In this document: positions 27,375-45,739 of the stretch, in pieces
How positions within the stretch are numbered: position 1 is the first letter of the stretch
How the letters are laid out: each line of letters starts with the position of its first letter
NCBI RefSeq assembly: GCF_002198115.1
Contig: NZ_NGNR01000003.1
Location: 243,546 to 307,545, forward strand
Length of the DNA stretch: 64,000 nt
Direction of reading: 5' to 3'
DNA from: Robiginitalea sediminis
GTDB taxonomy: Bacteria > Bacteroidota > Bacteroidia > Flavobacteriales > Flavobacteriaceae
Program-made: the position numbers and the translations under genes
The notes under the pieces: model-generated
The model's input: the letters and a program-made list of their open reading frames with translations, nothing else
Database searches by the model: none
What the model was told of the DNA's origin: nothing

Positions 27375-30185
27375 ATGCGCGTATTACCCATATGTTTCTT
27401 CCTGTTTTTTTGCATAGGCCTCGGACATGCCCAGGTCCTTCCCCCAATACGCAGTTTTGAACCCTCGGAATACGCGGCAGCCAACCAGAACTGGGGGGTG
27501 CAGCAAACCGATGCCGGGTGGATGTATTTTGCCAATAATGCGGGATTATTGGAGTTCAACGGCGTCAGATGGACCCTGTACAATTCTCCCAACGGCTCCG
27601 CATTGCGGTCTGTCCTGGCCCTGGGGGAGCGGGTGTACACCGGCTGTTATATGGAATTCGGGTTCTGGGATATGGACCCTTTCGGACAGCGGCGCTACAC
27701 CTCCCTGAGCGACGGGTTGCGGGACCAGTTGCTGCCGGACGAGGAAATCTGGCAAATCCGTTCCGTGGGGGACTGGGTACTGTTCCAGTCCTTACAACGC
27801 ATTTACGCCTTCCGGGCCGATCATACAGAAATTACTGTTATCCCTGCCCAGGCATCCAGAGCCCAGCTCTTCGGCTACGCGGGAGAGCTGTATTACAAAA
27901 AAGAGGACGAAGGACTGATGCGGCTGCGCAATGGGCAGCCGGAAGTCCTTATTCCCGGTCAGGAAATAGCAGACCAAGTGTTTATTGCCATGGCAGAGGT
28001 AAAGGGAATGCCTGCCCTTATAGGAGAGGATGGTGCTTTTCATTTGCTGTATCCGGATGGGATCCGGACCTGGACCCCGCCCGGTTTGGTTTCCTTTCCC
28101 GGGATAAAACTGTATAGCGCCCACCAGCTTTACGACGGGGTTCTTGCCCTTGGAAGCCTGTCTCAAGGCCTTATCCTGCTGGATGCTGAGGGGGAGTATA
28201 TGGCCAAGATGGGAAAGGCTGAAGGATTAAACAACAACACGGTCCTGGCGGTATTTGAGGACAGGTACCAGAACATTTGGCTTGGCCTGGATAATGGCAT
28301 AGGGGTCATTAACCGGGGTTCCGCCTACCGGGAATATATAGACAGGGAAGGGAAACTCGGGGTGGTCTATACCGCAAAGGAATATGACGGCAGGTTATAT
28401 CTGGGTACCAACCAGGGGCTTTTTAAATCCGCTTCCGGTCTGGGAGGACCCTACAGGCTTGTTCCGGGTACTGAAGGGCAGGTGTGGGCCCTCAGGGAAT
28501 ACGACGGGATATTGCTTGTGGGCCATCATAAAGGCACCTTTCAGGTAGAGGGTAATGGGGCAAGGATAATAGCGGAAACCCCTGGTACATGGGAGATAAA
28601 GCCGGTCCCCGGAGAAGATGACCTGCTGATGCAGGGGGGCTACCAGGGGTTGAGCCTGTTACAGAAGGGTGACAGGGGATGGGAGTCTCGCAATACCCTG
28701 GAAGGTTTTGGGATCTCCAGCCGCTTTTTTGAATTCACCGGCCCCAACCACATCATTGTCAACCACGAATTCAAAGGGGTCTTTGACCTGGATACCGACA
28801 GTGCCCTCAGGCGGGTAACCGATAGCAGTCAAACCCCGGCATTTGGTTTTGGTGCCAGTCTTTTCCGTTTTCGCCAAAAGGTTTATTATGCCAATAGCAG
28901 CGGGGTATTCCGGTATGTGGGCAATAATGGGGGGTTTGTAGCCGACACCTTGCTTAATACCAGTTTGTTTTCCGGAGTGGATAACCCCATTGGGGTGGTG
29001 CTCCCTGACGAAAGGGCAGAACGTATCTGGGCAATGGGCAATAGCACCATATACCAGGTAGAGCCGGAGCCGCTGGGCGGAGGGCTGAAGACACGTACCA
29101 TCCATATTCCCGAAGGCCTTCGCAGGCGCCTGGGCGTGGTGGGTTTTGAGTGTATTGCTCCCCTGGAAAATGGGCAATACCTCTTGGGCATGTCCGATGG
29201 TTTTCTCATCCTTAACCCGGACCGGTTGCGGGAGGAGCGCCCTGTGGTTCAGATAAGCAAGGCCCTCCATTACGGCAAGAACCGGGATTCCCTCGTGGGA
29301 TTACCACTTATGGAAACTCCTCGGACCCTGCAATCTGCCCGGAATAATCTCGAGTTCCAGTACGGTGTTCCCCAATACGATAAATACCGGGAGGTGGAGT
29401 ATCAGTATTGGCTGGAAGGTTTACAGGAGGACTGGAGTGCCTGGAGTACCCGGTCCGAAGTCCGTTTCGATAATTTATCCTTCGGCGATTACACCTTCCA
29501 CGTAAGGGCCCGCATCGGGGAAGCAGAATCCGATGGGGCTGTACCCTTCCGGTTTTCCATTTCCAGGCCCTGGTACCTCACCTATTGGGCCATTGCCCTG
29601 TTCACCTTAGCCGCAGCCGGGATGGCCTTTCTGATTCATCTTCGATACCGGGCTTACTACCGCAAACAACAAGCCCAGTTGCAATCCCAAGCCCGGAAAA
29701 AACTGAAAAGGAAGAAACTCAAGGCGAGGAAGAAACTCGTGGAGGTGCGAAATGCAAACCTGCGGCAGGAAATTGAAAGCAAGAACCGTGAACTCGCCGT
29801 TTCCACCATGTCCCTGATCAGGAAGAATGAATTCCTGAACACCCTGAAAGAGCAGCTTAAGAAGGCGGAGAATACCGCCCAGATTAGGTCGGTTATCCGA
29901 ACCATAGACCGCAATATCAACAATGAGGAAGATTGGGAGTTTTTTGAGGCTGCCTTCAATAATGCGGACAAGGATTTTCTGAAGAATATTAAACACCGCC
30001 ATCCGGAACTTACGCCAAATGATCTCCGGTTATGTGCCTATCTGCGTCTTAACCTGTCCTCCAAGGAGATTGCGCCCCTGCTCAACATTTCGGTACGAAG
30101 TGTTGAGGTCAAACGTTACAGGCTACGCAAAAAGATGGATCTGGAACACGACCAGAGCCTTACCAACTATATCCTGGAGCTTTAA
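27375..30185 (+). CDS. Membrane-spanning beta-propeller / Y_Y_Y / HTH sensor-regulator of the glucan locus
   Basis: About 936 residues. A signal peptide (VLPICFFLFFCIGLGHAQ) is followed by a large periplasmic part built of repeated seven-bladed-propeller-like strands (Reg_prop type, e.g. NIWLGLDNGIGVINR), then a Y_Y_Y triple-tyrosine domain (about 665-730), one membrane helix (about 733-757), a Lys/Arg-rich coiled coil (about 760-850), and a C-terminal LuxR-like helix-turn-helix (about 873-936: LTPNDLRLCAYLRLNLSSKEIAPLLNISVRSVEVKRYRLRKK, given in part). No histidine kinase or receiver domain is present, so it should sense periplasmic glycans and act directly on DNA. It lies immediately upstream of susC on the same strand. 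The start is uncertain: ATG codons at 27357, 27363 and 27375 are all in frame. Confidence 0.85.
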   Translation: MRVLPICFFLFFCIGLGHAQVLPPIRSFEPSEYAAANQNWGVQQTDAGWMYFANNAGLLEFNGVRWTLYNSPNGSALRSVLALGERVYTGCYMEFGFWDMDPFGQRRYTSLSDGLRDQLLPDEEIWQIRSVGDWVLFQSLQRIYAFRADHTEITVIPAQASRAQLFGYAGELYYKKEDEGLMRLRNGQPEVLIPGQEIADQVFIAMAEVKGMPALIGEDGAFHLLYPDGIRTWTPPGLVSFPGIKLYSAHQLYDGVLALGSLSQGLILLDAEGEYMAKMGKAEGLNNNTVLAVFEDRYQNIWLGLDNGIGVINRGSAYREYIDREGKLGVVYTAKEYDGRLYLGTNQGLFKSASGLGGPYRLVPGTEGQVWALREYDGILLVGHHKGTFQVEGNGARIIAETPGTWEIKPVPGEDDLLMQGGYQGLSLLQKGDRGWESRNTLEGFGISSRFFEFTGPNHIIVNHEFKGVFDLDTDSALRRVTDSSQTPAFGFGASLFRFRQKVYYANSSGVFRYVGNNGGFVADTLLNTSLFSGVDNPIGVVLPDERAERIWAMGNSTIYQVEPEPLGGGLKTRTIHIPEGLRRRLGVVGFECIAPLENGQYLLGMSDGFLILNPDRLREERPVVQISKALHYGKNRDSLVGLPLMETPRTLQSARNNLEFQYGVPQYDKYREVEYQYWLEGLQEDWSAWSTRSEVRFDNLSFGDYTFHVRARIGEAESDGAVPFRFSISRPWYLTYWAIALFTLAAAGMAFLIHLRYRAYYRKQQAQLQSQARKKLKRKKLKARKKLVEVRNANLRQEIESKNRELAVSTMSLIRKNEFLNTLKEQLKKAENTAQIRSVIRTIDRNINNEEDWEFFEAAFNNADKDFLKNIKHRHPELTPNDLRLCAYLRLNLSSKEIAPLLNISVRSVEVKRYRLRKKMDLEHDQSLTNYILEL

Positions 30186-30218
30186 GCGTTAAAAGTAAAC
30201 TTTATATTTCCTGCTATT

Positions 30219-30240: not shown

Positions 30241-30440
30241 AGGTGGGTGTGGCTTCTTTCCTAATGAAATGTTATAAATCTGCCTGGAATTGCGAATGCC
30301 TTAATTTCAGGGCTATTTCACTGCTATAGTACCAAAATATGGCCCTTGTAATTTGGGGCTGTATGTTTTTTGTAGGGGTAACAAATTAGATTTTCACCTA
30401 TACAAGGTATACATTGGGACATCCATCAAATGTCGTGGAA

Positions 30441-33400
30441 ATGAAACACAGGTTAGTCCTTATCTTCGGTTTTCTAACCCTCGGGTTGTACGCACAGGAT
30501 ATTCAGGTCCAGGGGGTCATTCTGGACGCGATGACCTCGGAGCCACTGCCAGGGGTAAATGTTATTGTTAAAGGAACCAATCGCGGCACGTCTGCGGATT
30601 TCGACGGAGCGTTCCAGCTCTCCGATTTGTCTGTCGGGGAGGTTCTGGAATTTTCGTACATCGGGTATCTCAGGAAAGAATATACGGTTCGGGGGCCCGA
30701 GAGCATCACCATAACCCTGCAGGAGGATGTCAGCGCCCTCGATGAGGTAGTGGTTATCGGTTATGGTACCCAGACCAAGAAAGAGATCACCGGTGCCGTG
30801 TCCGTGGTAGGTGCTGAGACCATTGAGGAACTAAACCCGACACGGATCGAACAGGCCCTTCAGGGGCAGGTCGCCGGGGTTCAGATCACCTCGGAATCCG
30901 GGTCGCCGGGTAGCGGCTCAAATATCCGCATCCGGGGGATTTCCACCAACGGAGACAACCGTCCGCTCATCCTTGTGGATGGGAACGTCATAGAAGACCT
31001 TAGTGTCATCAACCCTGGCGATATTGAGAGTATCAATATCCTGAAGGATGCCACCGCCGGTATTTATGGGGTACGGGCTGCCAACGGGGTTATCCTGATT
31101 ACCACCAAAACGGGAAGGCGCAATACCGACCTGAAGTTCAGTTACGATGCCTGGGGCGGGATGCAACAGACCTCCCGACGCATACCGGTACTCAATGCCA
31201 CGGAATATGCTGTTATTGCCAATGAGGCTTTTGCAGCCGGAGGCAGTCCCAACCCGTATCCGACCCTTTCCGGCCTGGGCAGCGGTACCGACTGGCAGGA
31301 CGAAGTATTCCGCAACGCTCCGATTTTCAACCACAACTTTAGCGCCAACGGGGGAAGTGAAAAATCGACCTATTCCTTTGGGGCATCCTACCTTACCCAG
31401 GACGGGATCGTGGGCGGTCCGAAGGCCAACTTCAACCGTTCCACCCTGCGGTTCAACTATAATACGGAGCTCCTTGAAAACCTGAACCTGGTCGCCAATG
31501 TCTTGTACACCCGGACCAACCGGAGGACCCTCCCGGAAAACAGCCTGGGAAGCGTGCTTTTTAATGCCCTGAACAACGCGCCTACCTTTGCCGTCAGGGA
31601 TGCCACAGGTAATTTCACCCTGGCCGAAGGTTTGGGTAACGAGGTTATCAACCCCCTTGCCCAGATTGAAAACACCTTCAATAAAACCACAGTAGACCGG
31701 ATCAGCGGTAAAATAGGGGCCGCCTACACCTTATTCGAGGGCCTTACCGCGGAATCCAATTTCCAGTTCAACTACGCGGAAGTGAACAGTATTTTCTTTG
31801 CGCCCACGGCCTTTTATGGTTCCGGGAAGGTTTTCAACGTGGAACGGAATTTCGTGGTGGAAAGCAAGAATATCTTCAGGGACTATACCTGGGACACCTT
31901 CCTGAAATACGCGAAGGAACTTGGGGGAGACCACAGTCTTAATGCTACCCTGGGGATGTCGGTTTTCCGCACCAGCGGTCAGTTTTCAGGGAGTACGGGC
32001 TTTGACATTCCCGGAAATGACTTTACCAATGCCTCCATTGAAAACGCCTCGGACGTCATAGACAACTTTATCAATACGGCCGGTAAATTCGATTCCCGCC
32101 TGCTATCCTATTTTGTGCGCCTTCAGTATGACTACGCCGGGAAGTATCTCCTGTCCGGAGTACTCAGGAGGGATGGCTCCACTGTTTTCGGCCCCAGAAA
32201 TAAATTCGGGTATTTTCCTTCTGCTTCTCTGGGCTGGATTGTTACCGAGGAGAATTTCCTGAATGACAGTTCCTGGTTGGATTTCCTCAAGCTGCGGGCC
32301 AGTTACGGAATTGTGGGTAATGACCGGATTGGGGTTTCAGATGCTTTCCGTTCTATCCTCTCCGGGGAAGGGGCTTATGTTTTCAACGATGAATTGCGCT
32401 TTGGCCAGGCCATCGGAGCCATTTCAAACCCCGAAATCCAATGGGAGGAGCAAAAAACCCTGGACATCGGTCTGGATGCGCGCCTTTTTGACGACCATAT
32501 CACCATAACCACGGATTATTTCCAGAAACGCACAGAAGGGCTGTTGGTTTCCCCTCCGGTTTCCGGCATCCTGGGGGCTGCCGCCCCGGGTTCCGGCCCT
32601 CCTTTTGTGAACGCCGGTACCGTGGAGAATAAGGGTCTTGAATTAGCAGTTGGGTACCAGACAGACCCAATGTCGGACTTCAGCGCCAACATCAACTACA
32701 ACGTCACCTTCCTTCAGAATGAAGTCATCTCGGTGAACAATGGTGTTGGTTTCATCCCCGGAGGTTCTTTCGGGGTAGGTCAGGACCCGCCTTCCCGAAT
32801 GGAGGATGGTTTCCCCCTGGGGTATTTCTACGGCCTTCAGACCGACGGGATTTTCCAGACCCAGCAGGAAGTGGATGCCCATGCCACTCAAGCCAATGCG
32901 GCTCCCGGAGACCTGCGCTTTGTGGACATCAACGGGGATGGCGTCATAGATACGGACGACAGGACGAACATCGGGGATCCCTTCCCGGATGCCACCATGG
33001 GTCTCAATATCAGCCTGGGATACAAACATTGGGATTTTACCGCCTATGCCTTTGCCTCCATCGGGAATGAAATTGTCCGCAATTACGAGCGGAACCAACC
33101 CCTGGTGAACCGTTCGGTCTACACCCTGGACCGCTGGACAGGCCCGGGTACCAGTACAGAGGTCCCGCGGGTCACGACCGGGGCTACTTCCAACACTTTG
33201 TTTTCCGATTTCTTTGTGGAAGACGGATCCTTTGTCCGGCTGCAAAATGCCCAGCTTGGGTACACCTTTTCCGATGTCTTCAACCAGGACCTCGGGATAG
33301 ACAAATTGCGGTTTTACGTTTCAGTCAACAACCTTTTCACCCTTACCAAGTACCGTGGCTATGATCCGGTAGCCTCTTCCGGTGCCCCCATTGGGGCCGG

Positions 33401-33464
33401 TATAGACCAGGGATTCTATCCTGTGGCACGGACGTATTTGTTGGGTGTTAATTTCAAATTTTAA
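30441..33464 (+). CDS. SusC/RagA-type TonB-linked outer-membrane transporter
   Basis: A 1007-residue outer-membrane protein. A signal peptide (MKHRLVLIFGFLTLGLYAQ) precedes a carboxypeptidase-D-regulatory-like domain (about 22-100: DAMTSEPLPGVNVIVKGTNRGT), a TonB box-like segment (DEVVVIGYGTQTKKEITGAVS), the plug (NIRIRGISTNGDNRPLILVDG) and a 22-strand barrel ending LLGVNFKF. It imports glycan oligomers bound by SusD using TonB energy. I chose the ATG at 30441, nine codons after an alternative start, because the signal peptide begins there. SusD follows by five bases. Confidence 0.95.
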   Translation: MKHRLVLIFGFLTLGLYAQDIQVQGVILDAMTSEPLPGVNVIVKGTNRGTSADFDGAFQLSDLSVGEVLEFSYIGYLRKEYTVRGPESITITLQEDVSALDEVVVIGYGTQTKKEITGAVSVVGAETIEELNPTRIEQALQGQVAGVQITSESGSPGSGSNIRIRGISTNGDNRPLILVDGNVIEDLSVINPGDIESINILKDATAGIYGVRAANGVILITTKTGRRNTDLKFSYDAWGGMQQTSRRIPVLNATEYAVIANEAFAAGGSPNPYPTLSGLGSGTDWQDEVFRNAPIFNHNFSANGGSEKSTYSFGASYLTQDGIVGGPKANFNRSTLRFNYNTELLENLNLVANVLYTRTNRRTLPENSLGSVLFNALNNAPTFAVRDATGNFTLAEGLGNEVINPLAQIENTFNKTTVDRISGKIGAAYTLFEGLTAESNFQFNYAEVNSIFFAPTAFYGSGKVFNVERNFVVESKNIFRDYTWDTFLKYAKELGGDHSLNATLGMSVFRTSGQFSGSTGFDIPGNDFTNASIENASDVIDNFINTAGKFDSRLLSYFVRLQYDYAGKYLLSGVLRRDGSTVFGPRNKFGYFPSASLGWIVTEENFLNDSSWLDFLKLRASYGIVGNDRIGVSDAFRSILSGEGAYVFNDELRFGQAIGAISNPEIQWEEQKTLDIGLDARLFDDHITITTDYFQKRTEGLLVSPPVSGILGAAAPGSGPPFVNAGTVENKGLELAVGYQTDPMSDFSANINYNVTFLQNEVISVNNGVGFIPGGSFGVGQDPPSRMEDGFPLGYFYGLQTDGIFQTQQEVDAHATQANAAPGDLRFVDINGDGVIDTDDRTNIGDPFPDATMGLNISLGYKHWDFTAYAFASIGNEIVRNYERNQPLVNRSVYTLDRWTGPGTSTEVPRVTTGATSNTLFSDFFVEDGSFVRLQNAQLGYTFSDVFNQDLGIDKLRFYVSVNNLFTLTKYRGYDPVASSGAPIGAGIDQGFYPVARTYLLGVNFKF

Positions 33465-33469: not shown

Positions 33470-34936
33470 ATGGTAGCATCAAAACACCTCAAGACCCTTC
33501 TGGGCCTGCTGTTGGCCACCCTCTGGATCGCCTGTAGTGACGACTTCGTGGATGTGGATTCCTTCGATGAGGATTCCGAGAACTTCTTCAATTCGGAAGA
33601 GGACTACGAGCAGGCACTGATCTCGGCCTATGACATGCTTCAATCCACCTACCTGAACGTCATGCTTGGTGAAATTGCCTCCGACAACACTCTGGCCGGG
33701 GGCGAAAGCGCCACAGACGTACCGGGGATACAGGAAATAGACGATATGGTACACACCCCGGTCAATGAACAGCTTCGCTCCATCTGGAGCTGGATGTTTG
33801 CAGGGGTTAACCGTGCCAACTACATCCTGGAATTCCGGGACAAGACGGATTTCCCCGGGAAAGAGCGCATCCTTGCCGAGGCCACCTTCCTCAGGGCTTA
33901 CTATTATTTCGAATTGGTAAAGTGGTTTGGCGACGTCCCGCTGGCAGTAGACCAGCGGCTATTGTTCGGCGACCAGGATGTGGTTGAGAGGACACCCGCA
34001 AGCGAGGTCTACGACCAGATTGAGGCAGACCTGACCTATGCAGCAGCCAACCTGCCGTACACCGCATTCGAAACCGGACGGGTTACCCGGGGTGCTGCCC
34101 AGGCCTTGCTGGGTAAGGTTCTGGTCTACCGTGAAAAATTCCAGCCGGCCGCCCAGGTCCTCGAAGACCTGATCAACAATGGCCCGCACCAATTGGTGAC
34201 TGACTACACCACCCTGTTTGAGAATGACAACGAGAACACCGTGGAATCGGTTTTCGAAGTGCAATACACAGACGTGGAAGGTGCCGGTTTCGGGTGCCTC
34301 CAGTGCAGTGAAGGGAATGTGGCCGTCGGGTTTAACGGGATCCGGAATTACTCCGGGCCTGTTTTTGAATCGGGCTTTAGTTTTAATGTCCCAACGGCCG
34401 AGGCCTATGCGGCCTTCGAGGACGGCGACCTTCGCCGGGATGTAGCTATCCTCGACATCGAGGCATGGGCAGCCGCCAACGATGGGGTATCCTACGTGGA
34501 AGGGTTTGAACACACCGGGTACTACAACCGGAAATACATCGCCCGCCAGGGAGACCTGAACACGGGGGACGCCAACCTGACCAACCCGAACAACTACCGG
34601 GCCATCCGCTATGCCGAAGTACTGCTGCTTGCTGCCGAAGCCCTGAACAGGGGTGGTATTGACGATGCGCGCGCCCTGGGGTATCTCAACCAGGTCCGCA
34701 ACCGCGCAGGTCTGTCGGATCTGAGCGCCACGGGTAGCGACCTGACCGAGGCCATCTACCGGGAGCGGCGCGTGGAACTAATGGGCGAAGGACACCGGTT
34801 CTTCGACCTGGTGCGCACCGGGCGGGCTGCGGCCAACATCCCCGGATTCCAGTCCGGCAAACACGAATTATTTCCTATTCCATCTATAGAAATTGAATTA
34901 GCGGGCAACCGCTGGGAGCAGAATCCCGGGTATTAA
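33470..34936 (+). CDS. SusD/RagB-type starch-binding-like lipoprotein
   Basis: A 488-residue surface lipoprotein. The signal peptide ends at lipobox WIAC near residue 22. The fold is helical with tetratricopeptide-like helices and the family motifs ANYILEF, FLRAYYYFELVKWFGDVPL, AEVLLLAAEALNRGG, YLNQVRNRAGL and the C-terminal ERRVELMGEGHRFFDLVRTG. It forms the lid on the SusC barrel and binds the glycan. It is in the middle of the susCD-binding protein-GH16 operon. Confidence 0.95.
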   Translation: MVASKHLKTLLGLLLATLWIACSDDFVDVDSFDEDSENFFNSEEDYEQALISAYDMLQSTYLNVMLGEIASDNTLAGGESATDVPGIQEIDDMVHTPVNEQLRSIWSWMFAGVNRANYILEFRDKTDFPGKERILAEATFLRAYYYFELVKWFGDVPLAVDQRLLFGDQDVVERTPASEVYDQIEADLTYAAANLPYTAFETGRVTRGAAQALLGKVLVYREKFQPAAQVLEDLINNGPHQLVTDYTTLFENDNENTVESVFEVQYTDVEGAGFGCLQCSEGNVAVGFNGIRNYSGPVFESGFSFNVPTAEAYAAFEDGDLRRDVAILDIEAWAAANDGVSYVEGFEHTGYYNRKYIARQGDLNTGDANLTNPNNYRAIRYAEVLLLAAEALNRGGIDDARALGYLNQVRNRAGLSDLSATGSDLTEAIYRERRVELMGEGHRFFDLVRTGRAAANIPGFQSGKHELFPIPSIEIELAGNRWEQNPGY

Positions 34937-34951
34937 TAAAAATTGGCAACC

Positions 34952-37624
34952 ATGAAACAGATCAGAACATTTGTAACAGCATGTATCGCTTTACTGGTAT
35001 TCTCCGGATGCTCCGAGGACGACCAGGTATCGTATGTGCTGCAGAATATCTCCGCTCCGACCAATGTCGAGGCCATCTTCGATATCGCTCAGGACGACAC
35101 CGGGACCGTTTCGGTTACCCCGACGGCCATTGGGGCGAGCTCCTTCAATATTTTCTTCGGCGATGTGGAGGATGAAACCCCCGTGCAGGCAGCACCGGGT
35201 GAAACGGTTACCCATATCTACGGAGAGGGCACCTTCCAGCTCCGCATTGTAGCGGTCGGGGCCACCGGGCTCACCAGCGAGCTGGTACGCGTGGTAAATA
35301 TCTCCTTTACCCCGCCCACCAACCTGGCGGTGGATATCTCCATCTCCCAGACCAATCCCTTTGAGGTGATCGTAGCCCCCACGGCAGATAATGCCACGGT
35401 CTTCGACATCTTTTACGGGGACGTAGCGGACGAAGTACCCCAGACCATCATGGCAGGGGAGACGGCTACCCACCTGTATGCCGAAACCGGCGATTACACC
35501 ATCCGGGTTGTAGCCCGGGGGGCCGGAGCAGCAACCCTTGAATATACCGAAGTGGTGACCATCAGCGGGGCTTCAGACCCCATCAGCCTCCCGATCACCT
35601 TCGATTCCCCCACTGTAAACTACGCCTTTGGCACGTTTAACGGCGCCAGCTACGAGGTGGTGGACAATCCCGACCCGAGCGGTGCCAACCCGACCGTCTC
35701 CAAAGTAGGGGCCATCACCAATTCCGGGAATAATTTTGAGGGCGGGGCCTTCAACCTGGGAACCCCTGTGGATTTCAGCGGCTCCGACAAGACCATCACC
35801 ATGAAGTTCTGGTCTAATGTCGCTGTTCCCATCCTCCTGAAATTCGAAGGAGGCGTGAACGGGGAGCGCGAGAATGAAGTTACCGTGAACCACGGAGGTA
35901 CCGGATGGGAAGAACTCAGCTTTAATTTTGCCACCGATGCCGTCAAGAGTTTTATCGACGGCAGCCAGGGGGTAGGTGAGCCTTTTGTCCCCACTGGGGA
36001 GTACGCCACCATGGTCATCTTTGTAGACGGCCCGGGCACCACCGCAGGGACATTCTATATAGACGATATCGATCAGTCAGGCGGCACCACAAGTCCGTTG
36101 GAACTGCCCATTACCTTCGATGTCTCCGGGGTAGATTACGCCTTCGGGACCTTTAACGGGGCTTCCTATGATATCGTAGACAACCCGGACCCGAGCGGTG
36201 CCAATGCTTCGGTCAGCAAAGTAGGAGCCATCACCAATTCCGGTAACCAGTGGGAAGGCGGAGCTTTCGTCCTGGATACCCCGGTAGATTTCAGCGGCAG
36301 CAACAAAACCATCCGCCTGAAATTGTGGTCTACCGTTTCCCTTCCCGTCCTGCTGAAATTTGAAGGAGGAGTGAACGGGGAACGCGAAAACGAGGTAACA
36401 GCCACCCACGGCGGTACCGGATGGGAGGAACTCAGTTTCAACTTTGCCACCGATGCCACCAAGAGCTTTATCGACGGAAACCAGGGCGTAGGAGAACCCT
36501 TCGTGCCCACCGGACAGTACGGGACCCTGGTCTTGTTTATAGACGGGCCTGGCTTCTCTGCCGGCACCTTCTACCTGGACGATATTTCCCAGGATGCTGA
36601 AACCCAGCCGCTGGCGCTGCCGATGAATTTTGACAACCCTTCGGTGGCCTACGATATGGGCACCTTTAACGGGGCCAGTTATGCGGTGGTAGACAACCCG
36701 GATGCCTCCGGGGCAAACCCCACCGTATCTAAGGTAGGGGCGCTGACCAATTCCGGAAACCAGTTTGAGGGCGGAGCCTTTAACCTGGGAACCCCGGTGG
36801 ATTTCAGCGGAAACGACAAGACTATCCGCATGAAGTTCTGGTCCAATGCAGCCGTGCCCATCCTCCTGAAATTCGAAGGCGGGGTTAACGGAGAACGCCA
36901 GAATGAGGTAACGGCCAACCACGGCGGTACCGGGTGGGAGGAGATCAGTTTTGATTTCGCCACCGATGCGGTCAAGAGTTTCATTGACGGCAGCCAGGGG
37001 GTGGGCGAACCCTTTGTGCCCACCGGCCAGTACGCCACCATGGTCATCTTTGTAGATGGTCCTGGCTTTACCTCCGGCACTTTCTATTTTGACGATATCG
37101 AGCAGATAGCCCCCAGCACAGAGCTGAAGCTGCCTATCGATTTCGACCAGCCCGGAGTAGCTTACGATATGACCACGTTTAACGGTGCCTCCTATGCGGT
37201 GGTGGCAAACCCGGACGCTTCCGGTGCCAACCCCACGGTAAGCAACGTAGGGGCCATTACCAATGCCGGCGTACAGTTTGAGGGCGGTTTCTTTGTCCTG
37301 GATGTCCCGGTGGATTTCTCCGGCGCCAACAAGACCATAGCTCTGAAGTTCTGGTCCAACACCGCAGTCCCGGTCCTGCTTAAGTTCGAAGGCGGGGTCA
37401 ACGGGGAACGCCAGTGTGAGGTTACGGCCAACCACAGCGGCTCCGGATGGGAAGAACTCACCTTCGACTTTGCCACCGATGCAGTCAAGAGCTTTATCGA
37501 CGGATCCCAGGGGGTGGGAGAGCCTTTTGTACCTACCGGCCAATACGGCCAGATGACCTTCTTTGTAGACGGGCCCGGCTTTACGGCGGGTACCTTCTAC
37601 CTGGACGATATCACCCAACAATAA
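34952..37624 (+). CDS. Surface glycan-binding lipoprotein with two Ig-like and four 171-residue repeats
   Basis: A 890-residue lipoprotein (lipobox LVFSGC, about residue 19) in the position of SusE/SusF. Two Ig/PKD-like modules of about 90 residues (about 30-115 and 118-205; both contain NxFYGDV- and GETATHxY-like motifs) are followed by four nearly identical 171-172-residue modules whose first Leu codons are at 35588, 36104, 36617 and 37130. Each module begins xLPITFD, contains FNGASYxVVDNPDxSGAN, LLKFEGGVNGER, GTGWEELSFNFATDA, FIDGSQGVGEPFVPTG and ends FYLDDI. The repeats look like glycan-binding beta-sandwiches; no catalytic motif is evident. I chose the ATG at 34952 rather than a TTG at 34943 because the signal peptide starts there. 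Confidence 0.85.
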   Translation: MKQIRTFVTACIALLVFSGCSEDDQVSYVLQNISAPTNVEAIFDIAQDDTGTVSVTPTAIGASSFNIFFGDVEDETPVQAAPGETVTHIYGEGTFQLRIVAVGATGLTSELVRVVNISFTPPTNLAVDISISQTNPFEVIVAPTADNATVFDIFYGDVADEVPQTIMAGETATHLYAETGDYTIRVVARGAGAATLEYTEVVTISGASDPISLPITFDSPTVNYAFGTFNGASYEVVDNPDPSGANPTVSKVGAITNSGNNFEGGAFNLGTPVDFSGSDKTITMKFWSNVAVPILLKFEGGVNGERENEVTVNHGGTGWEELSFNFATDAVKSFIDGSQGVGEPFVPTGEYATMVIFVDGPGTTAGTFYIDDIDQSGGTTSPLELPITFDVSGVDYAFGTFNGASYDIVDNPDPSGANASVSKVGAITNSGNQWEGGAFVLDTPVDFSGSNKTIRLKLWSTVSLPVLLKFEGGVNGERENEVTATHGGTGWEELSFNFATDATKSFIDGNQGVGEPFVPTGQYGTLVLFIDGPGFSAGTFYLDDISQDAETQPLALPMNFDNPSVAYDMGTFNGASYAVVDNPDASGANPTVSKVGALTNSGNQFEGGAFNLGTPVDFSGNDKTIRMKFWSNAAVPILLKFEGGVNGERQNEVTANHGGTGWEEISFDFATDAVKSFIDGSQGVGEPFVPTGQYATMVIFVDGPGFTSGTFYFDDIEQIAPSTELKLPIDFDQPGVAYDMTTFNGASYAVVANPDASGANPTVSNVGAITNAGVQFEGGFFVLDVPVDFSGANKTIALKFWSNTAVPVLLKFEGGVNGERQCEVTANHSGSGWEELTFDFATDAVKSFIDGSQGVGEPFVPTGQYGQMTFFVDGPGFTAGTFYLDDITQQ
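35588..37621 (+). repeat. Four 513-516-bp in-frame coding repeats
   Basis: The repeat unit starts at 35588, 36104, 36617 and 37130 (spacings 516, 513 and 513 bases). Nucleotide similarity is highest over the FEGGVNGER and TGWEE segments, where the copies align almost base for base. This favours recombination and copy-number change. Confidence 0.85.
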
Positions 37625-37634: not shown

Positions 37635-39242
37635 ATGACACGATTCGGAATATTTTTGATAGCGATACTGGCCCTGATGGCCGGGTGCCAGGAAGAGGAA
37701 CCCGAACTCCAGGAGCTCGCCATCCCCACAAACCTGACGGTAAACGTCAGCGTGGCTTCGGACCAGTCCGGGAATGTGACGGTGACACCCCAGTCCGACA
37801 ACAGTCTGTATTACCACGTCTTTTTTATTCCCGGGAATGATCCCGTGGTCATAAGCGCAGGCGAATCCGCCCAGTTCCGCTTCACGCGTTCCGGGCAGTA
37901 CAGCACCCCGGTAACGGTAGTGGCTTACAGTGCCGGTGGGTTGTCTTCCAGCACAACGGTCTATGTAGACATGGATGTCCGCCTTTTTATTGACGCCGCT
38001 ACCCTGCAACAGATTGCGGGTAACGGGGAAAAACGATGGGTATGGAACCGCACAGAGGCCGGCCATTTCGGGGTAGGTCCCCTTACCAATGACTTCCCCG
38101 AGTTTTTCAGCGCAGGCCCCGACCAGCTTAACCCCTGTCTGTACGACGATGTACTGGTGTTCAGTTACGATGCCAACGACAACTACAGTTTCCGCCTGGA
38201 ACCGGGGGCAGACAACCAGATTTTCATGAACTGGACAGAGGTGAACCGGTTTTTTCCGGATGCCACCCCGGGCCAGTTTGTGGATGAATGCCGCGACATT
38301 ACCGACCAGGCCTCCTTTGCCAGTAATTTCGTGATTATCGACAATGCCGACGGGACCCGAACCCTCGATGTGGGGAACAGTTTTATGAGTTATTGGGCCG
38401 TTATCTCAGGCCAGTATCAGATCGTGGAACTTACCGAAGACCGTCTTACGGTTCGGGGAATCAGCCAGCCTTTTAACGGGGACGACCCCCTGGCCTGGTA
38501 TTCCACATTTGTGCCGGAGGATAGCGGAACCCCCCCGGCCGACAGTTTCGACACCCTCATTTTTGAAGAGGCCTTCGATACCGACGGGGCACCGGACCCG
38601 GCCGTTTGGAATTACGACCTGGGTACCGGAAACAACGGCTGGGGTAACGGGGAATCCCAGTATTACACCGACCGCCCGGAGAACGTTATTGTGGAAGATG
38701 GCCTGCTGAAAATAACGGCCCGCGCAGAGGCTTTTTCCGGTAGTGACTATACCTCTTCCAGGATCCAGAGCTACCAAAAGTTCGAATTTCAGTACGGGAG
38801 GGTAGAGGTCCGTGCCAAGCTGCCCACCGGCGGCGGTACATGGCCTGCCATCTGGATGCTGGGGGCCGATTTTGAAACCAACATCTGGCCGGCTGCCGGG
38901 GAGATCGACATCATGGAGCACGTAGGGAACGACCAGGACCGCATCTTCGGTTCTACCCACGACCCGAACAACTTTGCGGGCAATGCCCGTACCGGATCCA
39001 CTGTGGTGACCGGGGTTTCGGACGATTTCCATGTCTATGCCATGGAATGGACCGCAGAGGAAATCCGCTTTTTCGTGGATGACCAGGAGTACCATGCCGT
39101 AACCAATAATTCGGGCCTGCCCTTCAACAAGGACTTTTTCCTGATCCTGAATGTAGCCATGGGCGGCACCTTCGGAGGAGCCATCGACCCCGGTTTTACG
39201 GCGTCGACCATGGAGGTGGATTACATCCGGGTGTATCAATAG
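37635..39242 (+). CDS. GH16 laminarinase-like lipoprotein
   Basis: A 535-residue lipoprotein (lipobox LMAGC near residue 18) with an N-terminal Ig-like module (about 30-118, similar to those of the preceding gene), a middle domain of unknown name (about 122-295) and a C-terminal GH16 catalytic domain (about 305-535). The active site GEIDIMEHVG gives nucleophile Glu423 and acid/base Glu428 (ExDxxE, with Asp425). The extra residue and the following STHD motif fit the GH16_3 beta-1,3-glucanase subgroup rather than agarases. It should cut beta-1,3-glucan at the cell surface. It is the last gene of the first PUL segment, followed by a hairpin. Confidence 0.9.
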   Translation: MTRFGIFLIAILALMAGCQEEEPELQELAIPTNLTVNVSVASDQSGNVTVTPQSDNSLYYHVFFIPGNDPVVISAGESAQFRFTRSGQYSTPVTVVAYSAGGLSSSTTVYVDMDVRLFIDAATLQQIAGNGEKRWVWNRTEAGHFGVGPLTNDFPEFFSAGPDQLNPCLYDDVLVFSYDANDNYSFRLEPGADNQIFMNWTEVNRFFPDATPGQFVDECRDITDQASFASNFVIIDNADGTRTLDVGNSFMSYWAVISGQYQIVELTEDRLTVRGISQPFNGDDPLAWYSTFVPEDSGTPPADSFDTLIFEEAFDTDGAPDPAVWNYDLGTGNNGWGNGESQYYTDRPENVIVEDGLLKITARAEAFSGSDYTSSRIQSYQKFEFQYGRVEVRAKLPTGGGTWPAIWMLGADFETNIWPAAGEIDIMEHVGNDQDRIFGSTHDPNNFAGNARTGSTVVTGVSDDFHVYAMEWTAEEIRFFVDDQEYHAVTNNSGLPFNKDFFLILNVAMGGTFGGAIDPGFTASTMEVDYIRVYQ

Positions 39243-39340: not shown

Positions 39341-40879
39341 ATGCAACAGGAAACCACCATTAAGATGAACAAGTCCTATACCATCCTCATAAGCCTCATC
39401 GTGGCTTTGGGGGGGTTCCTTCTGGGCTTCGACAGCGCTGTAATCTCAGGCGCCGTCCGCGGAATTACCGTCTATTTTGAAATGACCGACGCCATGCTCG
39501 GTTTCGCCGTAGGCTGTGTCATATTTGGTGCCATGGCGGGCAACCTTGCCGCAGGCCCCATAAGCGACCGCTTCGGACGCCGCAATGTCCTTATTGTGGT
39601 GGCAGCCCTCTTTACGATTTCTGCATCCTGGTCTGCCCTGGCAACCGGGTATACCGAATTTATCATCGCCCGTATCATCGGGGGTGTGGGCATAGGCGGG
39701 GCCATCCTGATCGCCCCGGTTTATATCGCCGAAATTGCCCCGCCCAAACTCCGGGGGAGCCTGGTATCCTTTAACCAGCTCAATATCGTAATCGGTATTT
39801 CCGTGGCTTATTTTTCCAATTATTTCCTGGTAGACCTGGGTGAGGATAGCTGGCGGTGGATGCTGGGGGTGGAGGCCATCCCGGCCCTGATTTATTTCCT
39901 GGCCCTTTTTACCGTCCCTAAAAGCCCGAGGTGGCTAATCCAGAAGCTCAACAAAATTGATCTGGCCCGGAAGATCCTCGTAAAAATCGGCGGGGAGGAA
40001 TATGCAGAAGCCACCATTGTGGAAATCCAGCGCGGGCTCGCCAAAAAGGAGTCCAAAGGCAAACTCTCCGATTTGCTGCAAAGCAAATACGCCACCATCA
40101 TGATCATTGCTATGGGGATTGCCTTTTTCCAACAGATTACCGGAATCAATGCCATTTTCTACTATGCCCCCACCATATTCGAACAGGCGGGTGGCAGCAC
40201 CGATTCCTCCTTCCTCCAGGCTATAGTGGTAGGGCTCACCAACCTGGTATTTACCCTTGTGGCCATCTGGCTTATCGACAAGCTGGGCCGCAAACCCCTG
40301 CTGCTTATCGGGACAACCTGTATGACCATAGCCCTTCTGCTGGCAACCCTGGCGTTTAACAATGCGACTTACGAGTTTAGCGATGCCGCCCTGGCGAAGG
40401 TCTCCAATGAGCAGACCCGGGCGCAGCTGACCGAGTTCCAGGGGCGTTCCTTCGACGGGCAGGCAGCCCTCTTTGAGGCGATTGCCCCGAGCCTTTCGGA
40501 AGATGAGTTCCTGGATTTCAAGCGGAACCAGATCACCAACTTTATCCAGATCAATGCCACCCTGGTATTGGTCGCCATTCTGCTCTATGTTGCGGCGTTT
40601 GCGATTTCGCTTGGACCGGTCATGTGGACGCTGATATCCGAGATTTTCCCGAGTAAGATTAAAGGGATTGCCATCTCGGTTGTAGGTTTCTTCAACTCCC
40701 TGGTGAGTTTCTCGGTAACCCAGGTATTTCCCTGGGAGCTATCCAACCTGGGCCCCACAACAACCTTTGCCATTTACGCCCTTTTATCGCTTTTGGCGCT
40801 TTTGTTTGTAAAACGATATGTCATCGAAACCAAGGGCAGGAGCCTGGAAGAGGTGGAGGAGTTACTGATTCGAAAATAA
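39341..40879 (+). CDS. Sugar-porter family MFS transporter
   Basis: A 512-residue inner-membrane carrier with twelve helices. Family motifs are GFDSAVISGA (helix 1), GPISDRFGRRN (loop 2-3), ARIIGGVGIGGA, QQITGINAIFYYAPTIFEQAG, LIDKLGRKPLLLIG and the C-terminal VIETKGRSLEEVEELL. It resembles xylose/glucose:proton symporters (XylE/GalP type). Its place in the PUL suggests it brings the released glucose or short glucan oligomers into the cytoplasm. An insertion with extra charge sits between helices 9 and 10. The start ATG at 39341 is 8 codons before a second in-frame ATG. Confidence 0.93.
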   Translation: MQQETTIKMNKSYTILISLIVALGGFLLGFDSAVISGAVRGITVYFEMTDAMLGFAVGCVIFGAMAGNLAAGPISDRFGRRNVLIVVAALFTISASWSALATGYTEFIIARIIGGVGIGGAILIAPVYIAEIAPPKLRGSLVSFNQLNIVIGISVAYFSNYFLVDLGEDSWRWMLGVEAIPALIYFLALFTVPKSPRWLIQKLNKIDLARKILVKIGGEEYAEATIVEIQRGLAKKESKGKLSDLLQSKYATIMIIAMGIAFFQQITGINAIFYYAPTIFEQAGGSTDSSFLQAIVVGLTNLVFTLVAIWLIDKLGRKPLLLIGTTCMTIALLLATLAFNNATYEFSDAALAKVSNEQTRAQLTEFQGRSFDGQAALFEAIAPSLSEDEFLDFKRNQITNFIQINATLVLVAILLYVAAFAISLGPVMWTLISEIFPSKIKGIAISVVGFFNSLVSFSVTQVFPWELSNLGPTTTFAIYALLSLLALLFVKRYVIETKGRSLEEVEELLIRK

Positions 40880-40888: not shown

Positions 40889-42202
40889 ATGCGTTCAATT
40901 TTAGTTTTATTCAGCATTGTTTGTCTCATTGCCTGTAAGCAGCAACCCGAACCTGCAGCCGCAGCGCAGCAGGAAACACCAGGCCCTGCCAAGGTAACCC
41001 TCAGTGAAGCAGAAGGGAAGTATACCCTGGAGGTAAACGGAGAACCGTTCTACATCAAAGGAGCAGGCCTCGAATTTGGCAATATCCCGGCCCTGGCCGC
41101 ACATAACGGGAATTCGTTTCGCACCTGGAGGACCGATAACGGACAGCGTCCGGCCCTGGAAATCCTCGATGAAGCCTATGCCAATGGCCTGATGGTAACC
41201 ATGGGGATCGAGGTGGCACGGGAAAGGCACGGGTTCGATTACAACGACCGCGAGGCCGTACAGGCGCAACTGGAGGATATTCGTCGCCAGGTCCTCGAAT
41301 TAAAGGACCATCCGGCCCTGCTCATCTGGGGTATTGGCAATGAGCTCAACCTGCATTATACCAATCCGAAAGTATGGGATGCAGTGAACGAAATTTCGGA
41401 GATGATCCATGAAGTAGACCCGAACCACCTGACCACTACAAGCCTGGCGGGCATTTCCAAAAAGGAAGTGGATTACATCAAGGCCCGGTGCCCGGACCTG
41501 GATATTCTTTCGGTACAGATGTATGGCGATTTACCCGACCTCCCGCGCCTGGTGCGCGAGTTTGGATGGGAAGGCCCCTATATGGTGACCGAATGGGGGG
41601 CTACCGGCCACTGGGAAGTCCCTACCACGGATTGGAAAGCCCCAATTGAAGAGCACAGCTCGGTTAAGGCCTCGAAATACCTGAAGCGCTTCCAGGGTGG
41701 GATTGAGGCAGACAGCCTGCAGTGTATCGGATCTTATGTTTTTTTGTGGGGAAACAAACAGGAGCGCACACCTACCTGGTACGGGATTTTTCTCGAAGAT
41801 GGAAAGGAAACCGAGTCTGTAGATGTGATGCATTATATTTGGAATGGGGCGTGGCCGGACAACCGGACCCCCCAGATCGAGAGCTTTACCCTCAATGGTA
41901 AAACGGCCTATGAGAATGTCAGAATTGCCAGCGGGTCTGTAGTGACGGCGAGCGCCGTGATTACAGATCCGGAGTCTGACCCCCTTACCTACCGCTGGGA
42001 AGTGCTGCCTGAGAGTACTGACCTGGGAGAAGGCGGGGATTATGAGGAGCGTCCGGAAGCCGTAACGGGGCTTTTCCAGTCCCAGTCCGGAGGGGAGCTC
42101 GAAATGACGGCCCCGGCCCCCGGCGCCTACCGGCTATTTGTATATGCTACAGATGGCCATCCGCATGCCGCAACGGCAAACATCCCGTTCCTGGTGGAAT
42201 AA
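40889..42202 (+). CDS. Clan GH-A glycoside hydrolase-like lipoprotein
   Basis: A 437-residue lipoprotein (lipobox CLIAC near residue 16). A TIM barrel (about 45-320) carries the clan GH-A signature pair: IWGIGNELN with acid/base Glu152, and MVTEWGATGH with nucleophile Glu235, 83 residues apart, plus LNxHY and RTWR motifs. It ends in an Ig-like domain (about 330-437, TASAVITDPESDPLTYRWEV). It is annotated as GH2-like TIM barrel by similarity of pattern; a GH158-like beta-1,3-glucanase is possible from its context and architecture. The family cannot be settled by eye. It starts nine bases after the MFS gene. Confidence 0.75.
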   Translation: MRSILVLFSIVCLIACKQQPEPAAAAQQETPGPAKVTLSEAEGKYTLEVNGEPFYIKGAGLEFGNIPALAAHNGNSFRTWRTDNGQRPALEILDEAYANGLMVTMGIEVARERHGFDYNDREAVQAQLEDIRRQVLELKDHPALLIWGIGNELNLHYTNPKVWDAVNEISEMIHEVDPNHLTTTSLAGISKKEVDYIKARCPDLDILSVQMYGDLPDLPRLVREFGWEGPYMVTEWGATGHWEVPTTDWKAPIEEHSSVKASKYLKRFQGGIEADSLQCIGSYVFLWGNKQERTPTWYGIFLEDGKETESVDVMHYIWNGAWPDNRTPQIESFTLNGKTAYENVRIASGSVVTASAVITDPESDPLTYRWEVLPESTDLGEGGDYEERPEAVTGLFQSQSGGELEMTAPAPGAYRLFVYATDGHPHAATANIPFLVE

Positions 42203-42286: not shown

Positions 42287-45200
42287 ATGCAAACTCATGT
42301 AGGTAATACCCCGATCCTGGATACTTCCGGCAAGGTGGAAGGAGAGATTGTTGAATTCCAGGGGGAATCCTTTTATAAAATCGCCAATGTAGACCAGATG
42401 CGCCCATTTTTTATGAGCCTGGTCAGCGATGGGAACCATTGGATGTTTATCTCCAGTAACGGGGGCCTGACGGCAGGTCGTAAAAACAGCGAGTTCGCCC
42501 TTTTCCCGTATTATACAGACGACAAGATCACGGAATCTGTGGATACCACGGGCTGTAAGACCCTTTTCCGCGTCGCTTCGGCTTCTGGGGGTTCTATGCT
42601 TTGGGAACCCTTCTCCGAGCGGTATTCCGGGCTTTACAACATCCGTCGCAACCTCTATAAGAACCGGTATGGCAATACCCTGATCTTCGAGGAGGAAAAT
42701 CTGGACCTGGGGTTGGTCTTTCAATACCAGTGGGAGACCAGCAACCGTTTCGGATTTGTGAGAAAGGCGCGGCTGTGCAATACTTCCGGGAACCCTTGTG
42801 AGGTACATCTGCTTGACGGGTTCCTCAACCTGGTACCCCATGGGGTAACCACAGAATTGCAGAATACCCGGAGCAACCTGGTAGACGCCTATAAGAAGAG
42901 CGAACTGCTGCCCGAAAGCGGCCTGGGCATCTATGCCCTGAGCGCCATTATTGTGGACCGGGCCGAACCCAGCGAGGCGCTAAAAGCCAATGTGGTCTGG
43001 TCCGCCGGGCTGGAATCCCCGGTTTGCCTGGTATCTGCCAGGCAGGTGGAGGACTTTCGGCATGGGGTAACCCCCACCCCGGAGACCCTGAACAAAGGGG
43101 AGAAAGGGGCGTACCTGGCCTATTCCCGGCTTAACCTGGATGCAGGCAGGGAGCACCATTGGACCCTGGTAGCCAACGTGAACCAGGGGCCTTCCGCGGT
43201 GGCGGACCTGCACAAAGCCCTTGGGAAGCCGGATGCGCTGCTACAGGAAGTAGAGTCCGATATCCGTTTGGGAACCGAAAAATTAATGGGGCTTGCTGCA
43301 GCGGCAGATGGCTTACAGCTAACGGCCGACCCCCTGCGCACCATGCGCCACTACGCCAACGTGATGTACAACATCATGCGGGGCGGAATTATGGACCAGG
43401 ATTACCTCCTGGAGCGTGAAGACCTGGCGGAATACATTCGCAGGGCCAGCCAGCGGGTCTCCCAGCAGCACCGGGAAATGCTCTCGGGCCTGCCGGAAGC
43501 GTTTACCCGCTTCGACCTCCTGGAAAGGGCCGGGCAGGTTGCCGATGCAGATCTGATGCGGCTGTGCCTGGAATACCTCCCCCTGAAATTCAGCCGCCGC
43601 CACGGGGATCCCAGCAGGCCCTGGAATAAGTTTTCCATCAATACCCAGCGCGAATCGGATGGGGCTAAAATCCTGGATTACCAGGGGAACTGGAGGGATA
43701 TTTTCCAGAATTGGGAAGCCCTGGCCCATTCGTATCCGGGCTTTATCCATGGGATGATCCACAAATTCCTGAATGCCTCCACGGCAGATGGGTATAACCC
43801 GTACCGGATTACCAAATACGGGGTGGACTGGGAGGTTATCGAACCCGACGACCCCTGGTCCTACATAGGGTACTGGGGAGACCACCAGGTGATCTACCTG
43901 CTGAAATTCCTGGAATTTGCAGAAGATTACGAACCGGGGCGCCTCATGGATTTCTGGGAAACAGATGTCTTTGTCTATGTAGATGTGCCCTACCGCATCA
44001 AATCCTTCGACGATATCCTGCAGAACCCAAAGGATACCATTGTATTCGATGCGGCCCTGGATAAGGAACTGCGCAAACGAATGTCCGATTCCGGTTCCGA
44101 TGGAGTGCTCCTGAGGGGGGTGGACGGGCAGCCCTACCGCGTGAACCTGGTGGAAAAACTCCTGGCCATGCTCCTGGCCAAGGTATCCAACTTTGTCCCC
44201 GAAGCCGGGATTTGGCTCAACACCCAGCGCCCGGAGTGGAATGACGCCAACAATGCCCTGGTGGGCAACGGGGTATCCATGGTAACCCTGTATTACCTGC
44301 ACCGCTTCCTGAATTTCCTGGATGGGGTGTTGGATCGGCACCAGCCCGGACGTGCCATGGTTTCCAAGGCCTTGCTCGATTTCTTCGACGCCGCGGACCA
44401 GGCTCTTAAGGCCCATGAAGGGGAATTGTCCGGATCCTTCGACGATGTGCGCCGGATGGCCCTTACCGAGACCCTGGGAAGGGCAGGGGAGCAGTACCGT
44501 GCCTCTGTCTATCAGGGGAGGCTCCCCAGTGGTAAATCCGAATTACCTGCAGACCGACTGGCCGTCTTTGTTAAGCAGATGCTTCGTTACACCGCACATT
44601 CCATTGCAGCCAACCGCCGGAAGGATCAACTCTTCCATAGTTACAACCTCATCGACCTTAGCCAGCCCGGGTCCCTGTCGGTTTCCTACCTGGACCTGAT
44701 GCTCGAAGGTCAGGTCGCAGTACTGAGTTCCGGGTACCTGGATGCGGCCGCATCCGCAGACTTGATGGATGCCCTGCGCTCCAGTGCCCTGTACCGTAAA
44801 GATCAGAATAGCTATATCCTCTACCCGAATAAAGACCTGCCGCCCTTTACCCGGAAGAATCTTATCCCGGAAGCCCGGGTCGCAGCATCCGAATTGTTGA
44901 AACAGCTGCTGGAGGACGGGGACCGGTCGGTTATCGAGCAGGACAGCTCTGGTGGGTATCACTTTAACGGGGCCTTTAATAATGCCTCCCGTCTGGCAGA
45001 AGCCCTGGACTGCCTTCCGCCCTCCTACGCTCATTTGGTAGCGGGTGAACGGAAGCTCATCCTGGAAACCTATGAGGAGCTTTTCGACCATCGCTCCTTC
45101 ACCGGGCGGAGCGGCACCTTTTTTGGCTATGAAGGTCTCGGATCCATTTATTGGCACATGGTATCCAAATTATCCCTGGCGGTCCTGGAGACCTGTGCCA

Positions 45201-45739
45201 GGGGCCAGGCAAGTGGGGCGCCGCAGGAGCTGATCCGCAGGCTTGAAAGACATTACCACGAGGTCAACGCCGGAATTGGGGTACATAAATCCCCAGGGGT
45301 TTACGGGGCTTTCCCTACAGACCCCTACTCTCATACCCCTGCACACCGGGGTGCCCAGCAACCCGGGATGACGGGCCAGGTGAAGGAAGATGTCCTGACC
45401 CGGCTTATGGAGCTCGGGGTAAGGGTCCAATCCGGTGCCATAGCGTTTGGCCCGTTCTGGTTCGACCCGGAAGAATGGTTGGGCCAGGCAGATACCTTCG
45501 TGTACCGCAACCTAGCAGGAAATGAGGAATCCCTGGCCCTGCCGGCAGGTTCCCTGGCCTTTACCTATTGCCAGGTGCCCATTGTTTACCACCGCTCGGG
45601 AGAGGCCTATATCGAAGTGCATTATGCTAAGGGCAAGCCGGAGCGCAAGCCCGGGCACAGGCTAGACCCTGAACGTTCCGCCGCCATTTTCAAAAGGTCC
45701 GGGGAGGTGGTCCGTGTGGAGGTGGGCATCCCTGGATAA
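42287..45739 (+). CDS. Large cytosolic glycoside phosphorylase, GH149/GH161-like (beta-1,3-glucan phosphorylase candidate)
   Basis: A 1150-residue protein without a signal peptide or membrane segments. The N-terminal half is beta-rich (supersandwich-like), and the C-terminal half is helix-rich with an (alpha/alpha)6-type pattern. PEWNDANNALVG at 649-660 (Glu650-Trp-Asn-Asp653) resembles the xDWND active-site motif of GH94 phosphorylases. The size and the location in a beta-1,3-glucan locus match GH149 (and GH161) beta-1,3-glucan phosphorylases, which convert glucan plus phosphate to glucose-1-phosphate. This is a family-level inference; the alternative is another GH94-clan enzyme. It ends the PUL, 84 bases after the previous gene. 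Confidence 0.7.
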   Translation: MQTHVGNTPILDTSGKVEGEIVEFQGESFYKIANVDQMRPFFMSLVSDGNHWMFISSNGGLTAGRKNSEFALFPYYTDDKITESVDTTGCKTLFRVASASGGSMLWEPFSERYSGLYNIRRNLYKNRYGNTLIFEEENLDLGLVFQYQWETSNRFGFVRKARLCNTSGNPCEVHLLDGFLNLVPHGVTTELQNTRSNLVDAYKKSELLPESGLGIYALSAIIVDRAEPSEALKANVVWSAGLESPVCLVSARQVEDFRHGVTPTPETLNKGEKGAYLAYSRLNLDAGREHHWTLVANVNQGPSAVADLHKALGKPDALLQEVESDIRLGTEKLMGLAAAADGLQLTADPLRTMRHYANVMYNIMRGGIMDQDYLLEREDLAEYIRRASQRVSQQHREMLSGLPEAFTRFDLLERAGQVADADLMRLCLEYLPLKFSRRHGDPSRPWNKFSINTQRESDGAKILDYQGNWRDIFQNWEALAHSYPGFIHGMIHKFLNASTADGYNPYRITKYGVDWEVIEPDDPWSYIGYWGDHQVIYLLKFLEFAEDYEPGRLMDFWETDVFVYVDVPYRIKSFDDILQNPKDTIVFDAALDKELRKRMSDSGSDGVLLRGVDGQPYRVNLVEKLLAMLLAKVSNFVPEAGIWLNTQRPEWNDANNALVGNGVSMVTLYYLHRFLNFLDGVLDRHQPGRAMVSKALLDFFDAADQALKAHEGELSGSFDDVRRMALTETLGRAGEQYRASVYQGRLPSGKSELPADRLAVFVKQMLRYTAHSIAANRRKDQLFHSYNLIDLSQPGSLSVSYLDLMLEGQVAVLSSGYLDAAASADLMDALRSSALYRKDQNSYILYPNKDLPPFTRKNLIPEARVAASELLKQLLEDGDRSVIEQDSSGGYHFNGAFNNASRLAEALDCLPPSYAHLVAGERKLILETYEELFDHRSFTGRSGTFFGYEGLGSIYWHMVSKLSLAVLETCARGQASGAPQELIRRLERHYHEVNAGIGVHKSPGVYGAFPTDPYSHTPAHRGAQQPGMTGQVKEDVLTRLMELGVRVQSGAIAFGPFWFDPEEWLGQADTFVYRNLAGNEESLALPAGSLAFTYCQVPIVYHRSGEAYIEVHYAKGKPERKPGHRLDPERSAAIFKRSGEVVRVEVGIPG

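Follow-up and report, generated by a model that had tools for sequence, protein, structure and literature searches.

The window analysed here is a 64,000-nucleotide stretch of the Robiginitalea sediminis genome (contig C9, positions 243546–307545; genome of 3.30 Mb in 15 contigs, GC 55%), and at its positions 27375–45739 lie eight consecutive open reading frames (ORFs), all on the + strand and separated by intergenic gaps of 5 to 228 bases. We consider these genes to form, probably, a β-1,3-glucan (laminarin-type) utilization locus with a phosphorolytic end. The original prediction had named eight same-strand genes in this order; all of the ORFs were found, with family matches far above chance. 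They are listed below, with GH for glycoside hydrolase family and MFS for major facilitator superfamily.

27375–30185, + strand: transcription regulator with Reg_prop propeller, Y_Y_Y and LuxR-type helix-turn-helix domains (Pfam Y_Y_Y 36.6 bits, GerE 23.9, Reg_prop 21.9)
30414–33464, + strand: SusC-like TonB-dependent outer-membrane transporter (TIGR04056 SusC/RagA, 839.5 bits, cut-off 368.25)
33470–34936, + strand: SusD-like surface glycan-binding protein (PF07980 (SusD_RagB) 111.8 bits, PF14322 79.3 bits)
34943–37624, + strand: predicted four-module surface glycan-binding protein (internal repeats; module 2 against PDB 8qx6)
37635–39242, + strand: GH16 laminarinase-like lipoprotein (PF00722 88.9 bits; nearest structures 3iln and 4bq1)
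39341–40879, + strand: sugar-porter MFS transporter (TIGR00879 367.8 bits, cut-off 237.8; XylE structure match)
40889–42202, + strand: GH158 lipoprotein (structures 9oro, E 8.6e-91, and 6pal, E 8.9e-81)
42287–45739, + strand: GH149 β-1,3-glucan phosphorylase (NF058639 1661.6 bits, cut-off 1150; 6hq6 1408.1 bits)

Profiles of the Pfam and TIGRFAM type bore out the regulator, SusC, SusD, GH16 and sugar-porter calls made earlier. Adjacent SusC and SusD genes accompanied by at least two carbohydrate-active enzyme genes, as seen here, constitute the canonical Bacteroidota polysaccharide utilization locus (PUL) (PMC10811738). The longest ORF of the regulator begins at 27228, and 27375 is an internal ATG that opens a signal-peptide-like MRVLPICFF; the protein is a probable sensor of glucan products. 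The SusD-like and repeat proteins are probable lipoproteins, with WIAC and FSGC lipoboxes, respectively, spotted by eye. The four repeats originally noted in the latter are real: tandem modules of ~170 residues start at residues 216, 388, 559 and 730 with a mutual identity of 73–83%, and module 2 matches the solved structure 8qx6 (E 7.7e-48), which we take to be linked to laminarin. The GH16 protein possesses a MAGC lipobox and an intact EIDIME catalytic motif (residues 423–428).

The lipoprotein at 40889–42202 had been assigned to clan GH-A. Pfam takes it only as far as a GH2-like TIM barrel; the structure search places it in GH158, through 9oro and 6pal, the latter being, as we presume, BuGH158. 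A LIAC lipobox is present, and E152 (GNE) and E235 (TEWG) match the E137/E220 catalytic pair of BuGH158, an endo-β-1,3-glucanase whose pathway is closed hydrolytically by BuGH3 (PMC7157763). The protein of the window locus is a probable endo-β-1,3-glucanase. For the 1150-residue product of the last gene, Pfam returned no match, and the NCBIfam profile NF058639 (GH149 1,3-beta-D-glucan phosphorylase) is covered from position 3 to 1133 of 1134. Of the earlier label ‘GH149/161-like’, the GH149 half stands (1408.1 bits to 6hq6) and the GH161 half was rejected (70.7 bits to the GH161 structure 9qqk); assignment to a non-phosphorylase family, named beforehand as a refuter, did not occur. A PEWNDAN motif is conserved in all 115 GH149 rows (113 distinct, the window protein counted), and its Asp, D653, is the expected general acid, a role that we carry over from GH94. 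No signal peptide was seen by eye.

The GH149 gene also differs in rate between the window genome (G000) and its congener G296, where its nonsynonymous divergence (dN 0.251) is two to five times that of neighbouring PUL genes (SusC 0.090, SusD 0.052, repeat protein 0.104, GH16 0.080, porter 0.072, GH158 0.134), with synonymous divergence near saturation. Flanking genes compared with genome G303 reach comparable values (TpiA 0.178, DoxX-like 0.238); because of this and of the near saturation, we draw no conclusion from the rate.

As predicted, no GH3, GH17 or GH30 gene occurs in the eight-gene locus. The further claim, that the phosphorylase takes the place of these exo-hydrolases, finds direct comparative support in an exchange of GH149 and GH3 at one chromosomal slot. 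GH149 is kept in seven of the ten genomes of the genus, the three without a match being G298, G300 and G302. Nine of the ten genomes allowed the slot to be read (G301 contributes a short contig only); it lies between DoxX-like, tpiA and prmA-like genes on one flank and a small lipoprotein/nucleotidase-like/YfcC-like group on the other (names by eye). With SP for sugar porter, its contents are:

SP-GH158-GH149: G000 and G296 (both with the eight-gene locus), G303
SP-GH158-GH3: G300 (no GH149)
SP-GH149-GH3: G297, G304 (the G304 contig stops short of the far flank)
GH3 alone: G298, G302 (no GH149)
Unrelated genes: G299, whose GH149 sits elsewhere, beside GH17 and GH30

Phosphorylase and exo-hydrolase alternate at one slot in sister species. 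In a tree of four flanking proteins, G300 groups with G000 and G296 (95/96), and on this tree GH149 must have been gained or lost at least twice; by nearest structures, the slot GH3s fall into two types. This comparison is the strongest support for replacement. The presence of a phosphorylase in a laminarin locus is, taken alone, nothing out of the ordinary; in the neighbourhoods compared, GH149 and exo-hydrolases normally coexist.

The same eight-gene order recurs in G296 (stretches L182/L171) and in G109 from another genus (L127/L165), with no GH3, GH17 or GH30 label in either eight-gene stretch. Relative to the window, the G109 porter, GH158 and GH149 proteins are 83%, 70% and 54% identical, against 31% for SusC and 25% for SusD, a pattern suggestive of a single cassette linked to distinct SusCD pairs. 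Across the whole order, 38 of the 296 genomes have a GH149 match. We read neighbourhoods in two sets: a named set, the best 80 loci of a larger family (51 with at least 8 kb of flank on each side), and an order set of 34 stretches that represent 33 of the remaining 37 GH149 genomes (the four whose matches were fragmentary were excluded; 27 stretches have full flanks); the sets share two loci, one pair of them full-flank. Neighbour labels derive from profiles built on clusters of the 80 named loci, and hydrolase families beyond those clusters would escape. At full flanks, GH17, GH30 or GH3 was present in 48 of 51 named loci, drawn from the best 80, and at least one of them in 26 of 27 order-set stretches. 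All three were absent in Eudoraea chungangensis (L036), Gaetbulibacter saemankumensis (L075) and a Flavobacteriaceae metagenome-assembled genome (MAG; L078) in the first set and in L127 in the second. The porter–GH158–GH149 triplet was found in eight of the best 80 named loci and three of the 34 order-set loci.

Two further features of these neighbourhoods were recorded. In 45 of the best 80 there is a protein of ~1045 residues that contains a GH2-like TIM barrel (for example L039, 1694–4828); its representative matched no solved structure at E 0.1, and the ‘GH0’ named in published laminarin PULs may be this protein. In Eudoraea chungangensis (L036, 14718–17207) and in one Flavobacteriaceae MAG (L065), GH149 has a gene for a GH94 phosphorylase nearby.

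The sugar porter carries an extra loop of ~60 residues (~338–403; window 40352–40549), at which the alignment to XylE is interrupted (339/403). The loop lies between transmembrane helices 9 and 10 and, by the usual MFS topology, presumably faces the periplasm. Among GH149-locus porters longer than 430 residues (four shorter ORFs, L037, L041 and two in L066, were dropped), its length is 63–92 residues in 25 of 25, even at 40–49% identity. The sugar porters compared with these were only those with a retrieved locus: in ten, from seven of the eight genomes searched, the same site spans 5–20 residues, and in an eleventh, from the SP-GH158-GH3 slot of G300 (L184), the loop is present. Counting porter matches at E ≤ 1e-90, porter and GH149 occur together in 24 of the 296 genomes, porter alone in 13, GH149 alone in 14 and neither in 245 (Fisher p 1.4e-16, relatedness ignored); all 34 distinct porter copies fetched bear the loop (63–101 residues). 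The 13 porter-only genomes form two groups, eight from another family and five from the family of the window genome. In six small genomes among the eight, an ORF of the GH94 superfamily follows the porter (L231, L235–L239; Pfam was run on four of the six, and the WND motif is present in all five inspected), in one a 39-residue remnant does, and in one the GH94 gene is in several pieces (L234, 6484–9141) beside an intact porter; five of the eight have a GH158-type gene nearby. The same porter type is paired here a second time with a phosphorylase, one that is probably cytosolic, and it recurrently travels with phosphorylases, though not exclusively.

From these parts, a pathway can be proposed. 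At the cell surface, SusD and the four-module protein would hold the glucan, which GH16, assisted by a surface-bound or periplasmic GH158, would endo-cleave to oligosaccharides that SusC would move into the periplasm. The loop-bearing porter may then take laminari-oligosaccharides, or part of them, to the cytosol, where GH149 and phosphate would convert them to glucose-1-phosphate and, in the last step, glucose, with one ATP spared for each bond. The GH149 enzymes EgP1 and Pro_7066 catalyse the phosphate-dependent breakdown of β-1,3-gluco-oligosaccharides to glucose (PMC5827456, PMC6484121). The original prediction had called the locus complete, and this goes too far: nothing in it is expected to remove β-1,6 branches. 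EgP1 is restricted to β-1,3 bonds, so such branches would need an unlinked GH30 or GH3, and because the genome holds five GH3 genes and one GH30 gene elsewhere, which could supply exo-hydrolysis, completeness is unproven, above all for the branches.

Several observations weigh against a phosphorolytic end. Given the 48 of 51 and 26 of 27 neighbourhoods with hydrolases, the window locus belongs to a minority form, the usual state being phosphorylase and hydrolases together. The genome retains possible exo-glucosidases although the locus has none. Its five GH3 genes and one GH30 gene all lie off contig C9, and one GH3 (L118; 747 residues, lipoprotein-like by eye, nearest to the GH3 structure 8va7 and to β-glucosidases) shares 44% identity with the GH3 that occupies the slot in G297 and G304, so exo-hydrolysis from outside the locus is possible. 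In the porter, all five XylE/GLUT-type pocket residues checked are kept (QQQNW), their roles being transferred by us from XylE, and a hexose-type pocket of this kind would suit a monosaccharide. A porter of this type is missing from 14 of the 38 GH149 genomes, and G300 keeps the loop porter next to GH158-GH3 with GH149 gone. In the five porter-only genomes of the window's family, loop porters stand amid GH127, sulfatase or agarase-like genes with no GH149 or GH94 label; loop porters near GH127 or sulfatase genes rule out the loop as an exclusive mark of GH149 loci and, with no phosphorylase label in those stretches, mean that it is no mark of oligosaccharide transport. Such transport by the loop porter is plausible, and passage across the inner membrane is where the proposed pathway is weakest.

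The genomic GH3 and GH30 genes, the likeness of L118 to a slot GH3, the hexose-type pocket and the real SP-GH158-GH3 arrangement of G300 would all fit a different ending, in which an unlinked periplasmic GH3 (or GH30) releases glucose, the porter imports it and GH149 handles a minor leak of oligosaccharides. We regard this as unlikely. The 20-kb stretches around the GH3 and GH30 genes contain no ORF matching SusC or SusD of the locus, and the GH3 at L117 is best read as a NagZ-like enzyme of peptidoglycan recycling because anmK-like and murQ-like genes adjoin it (by eye). For the slot GH3s of G298, G302 and G300, none of the five GH3s in the window genome is closely related (31–32% identity at best), and GH149 has been retained across most of the genus. 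The structure nearest to the single GH30 is 5ngk, deposited as a glucosylceramidase. A GH17 protein query from L058, used in place of Pfam GH17, which rang in no control genome, found no match in the window genome or in G109 and was positive in the controls G276, G281 and G079. The surroundings of a second GH16 gene (C8:426736, stretch L164) do not resemble another laminarin PUL, as no SusC, SusD or GH3 label stands beside that gene.

Similarly doubtful is a target other than algal laminarin, either mixed-linkage glucan or a fungal or plant β-1,3-glucan. The locus is without a GH30 or GH17 partner, and the GH16 enzyme of Bacteroides uniformis, BuGH16, acts on mixed-linkage glucan too (PMC7157763); against this, BuGH158 and BfGH158 are described as highly specific laminarinases and the GH149 enzyme EgP1 acts only on β-1,3 bonds. 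The repeat protein, moreover, resembles 8qx6, a structure linked to laminarin. Far less credible is a synthetic role, in which GH149 would build β-1,3-gluco-oligosaccharides from glucose-1-phosphate and porter-imported glucose: the reaction is reversible, glucose is accepted by GH149 enzymes and a glucose-type porter is nearby, but the operon context is degradative and GH149 alternates with GH3 in the same slot. Laminarin breakdown with a phosphorolytic end is the most probable reading.

Phosphorylases in laminarin loci are already published and not new. GH149 is present in Formosa laminarin PULs (PMC6246565), and Bacteroidetes PULs combine it with GH3/GH30_1 and GH16/GH17 (PMC5827456). The marine flavobacterial variant 1/B laminarin PUL (PMC10108472, PMC10877868, PMC6298971, PMC6246565) shares SusCD, GH16, an MFS transporter and GH149 with the window locus, and GH158 in some cases; variant 1 is given as GH149, GH17, GH16, GH158 and GH30 ‘including variations’ (PMC10877868). 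In contrast, the window locus has no GH17, GH30, GH3 or MFS_2-type transporter, and a sugar porter and GH158 precede its GH149; the GH17 and GH30 genes by which a cluster belongs to variant 1/B are absent. A GH149-GH0-GH16_3 PUL of Aurantivirga, the most expressed bacteroidetal MAG (PMC10108472), shares GH149 and GH16, and the available description likewise lists no GH3, GH17 or GH30; GH158 and the sugar porter distinguish the window locus. The B. uniformis 1,3GUL (PMC7157763) shares SusC/SusD-type proteins, a further surface glycan-binding protein, GH16 and GH158, and ends in a periplasmic GH3 β-glucosidase under a hybrid two-component regulator, where the window locus ends in GH149. Muricauda shows the same exchange, with GH3 in place of GH149 in some laminarin clusters, but keeps two GH17 genes and one GH30 gene (PMC13188888). 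Gammaproteobacterial GH149 Type II clusters (PMC5827456) share a TonB-dependent receptor, GH16, MFS and GH149; GH17 and an MFS_2-type (pfam13347) transporter are listed there, and SusD and GH158 are not mentioned in the portion of the text at hand.

Each part of the locus is known, but an arrangement that dispenses with the usual exo-hydrolases is uncommon. The open-licence literature, supplements aside and as far as its texts were accessible, yielded no GH16–porter–GH158–GH149 locus free of exo-hydrolases, which the published ‘including variations’ may cover, and no description of the porter loop. Searches of that literature for CBM102 with laminarin, and for a sugar porter with laminarin and a phosphorylase, found nothing, and a search under the name Robiginitalea listed no such locus. 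Apart from the locus, a tandem pair of tRNA-Glu(ttc) genes lies at window positions 12130–12321.

Laminarin accounts for one of the largest marine carbon flows. The choice between hydrolysis and phosphorolysis at the end of its breakdown alters how much ATP is gained from each glucose and determines which molecules, oligosaccharides or glucose, must cross the inner membrane; for oligosaccharide import, the porter with the extra loop is a concrete candidate. With GH3 and GH149 exchanged at one site, this genus offers a ready natural experiment on hydrolysis versus phosphorolysis.

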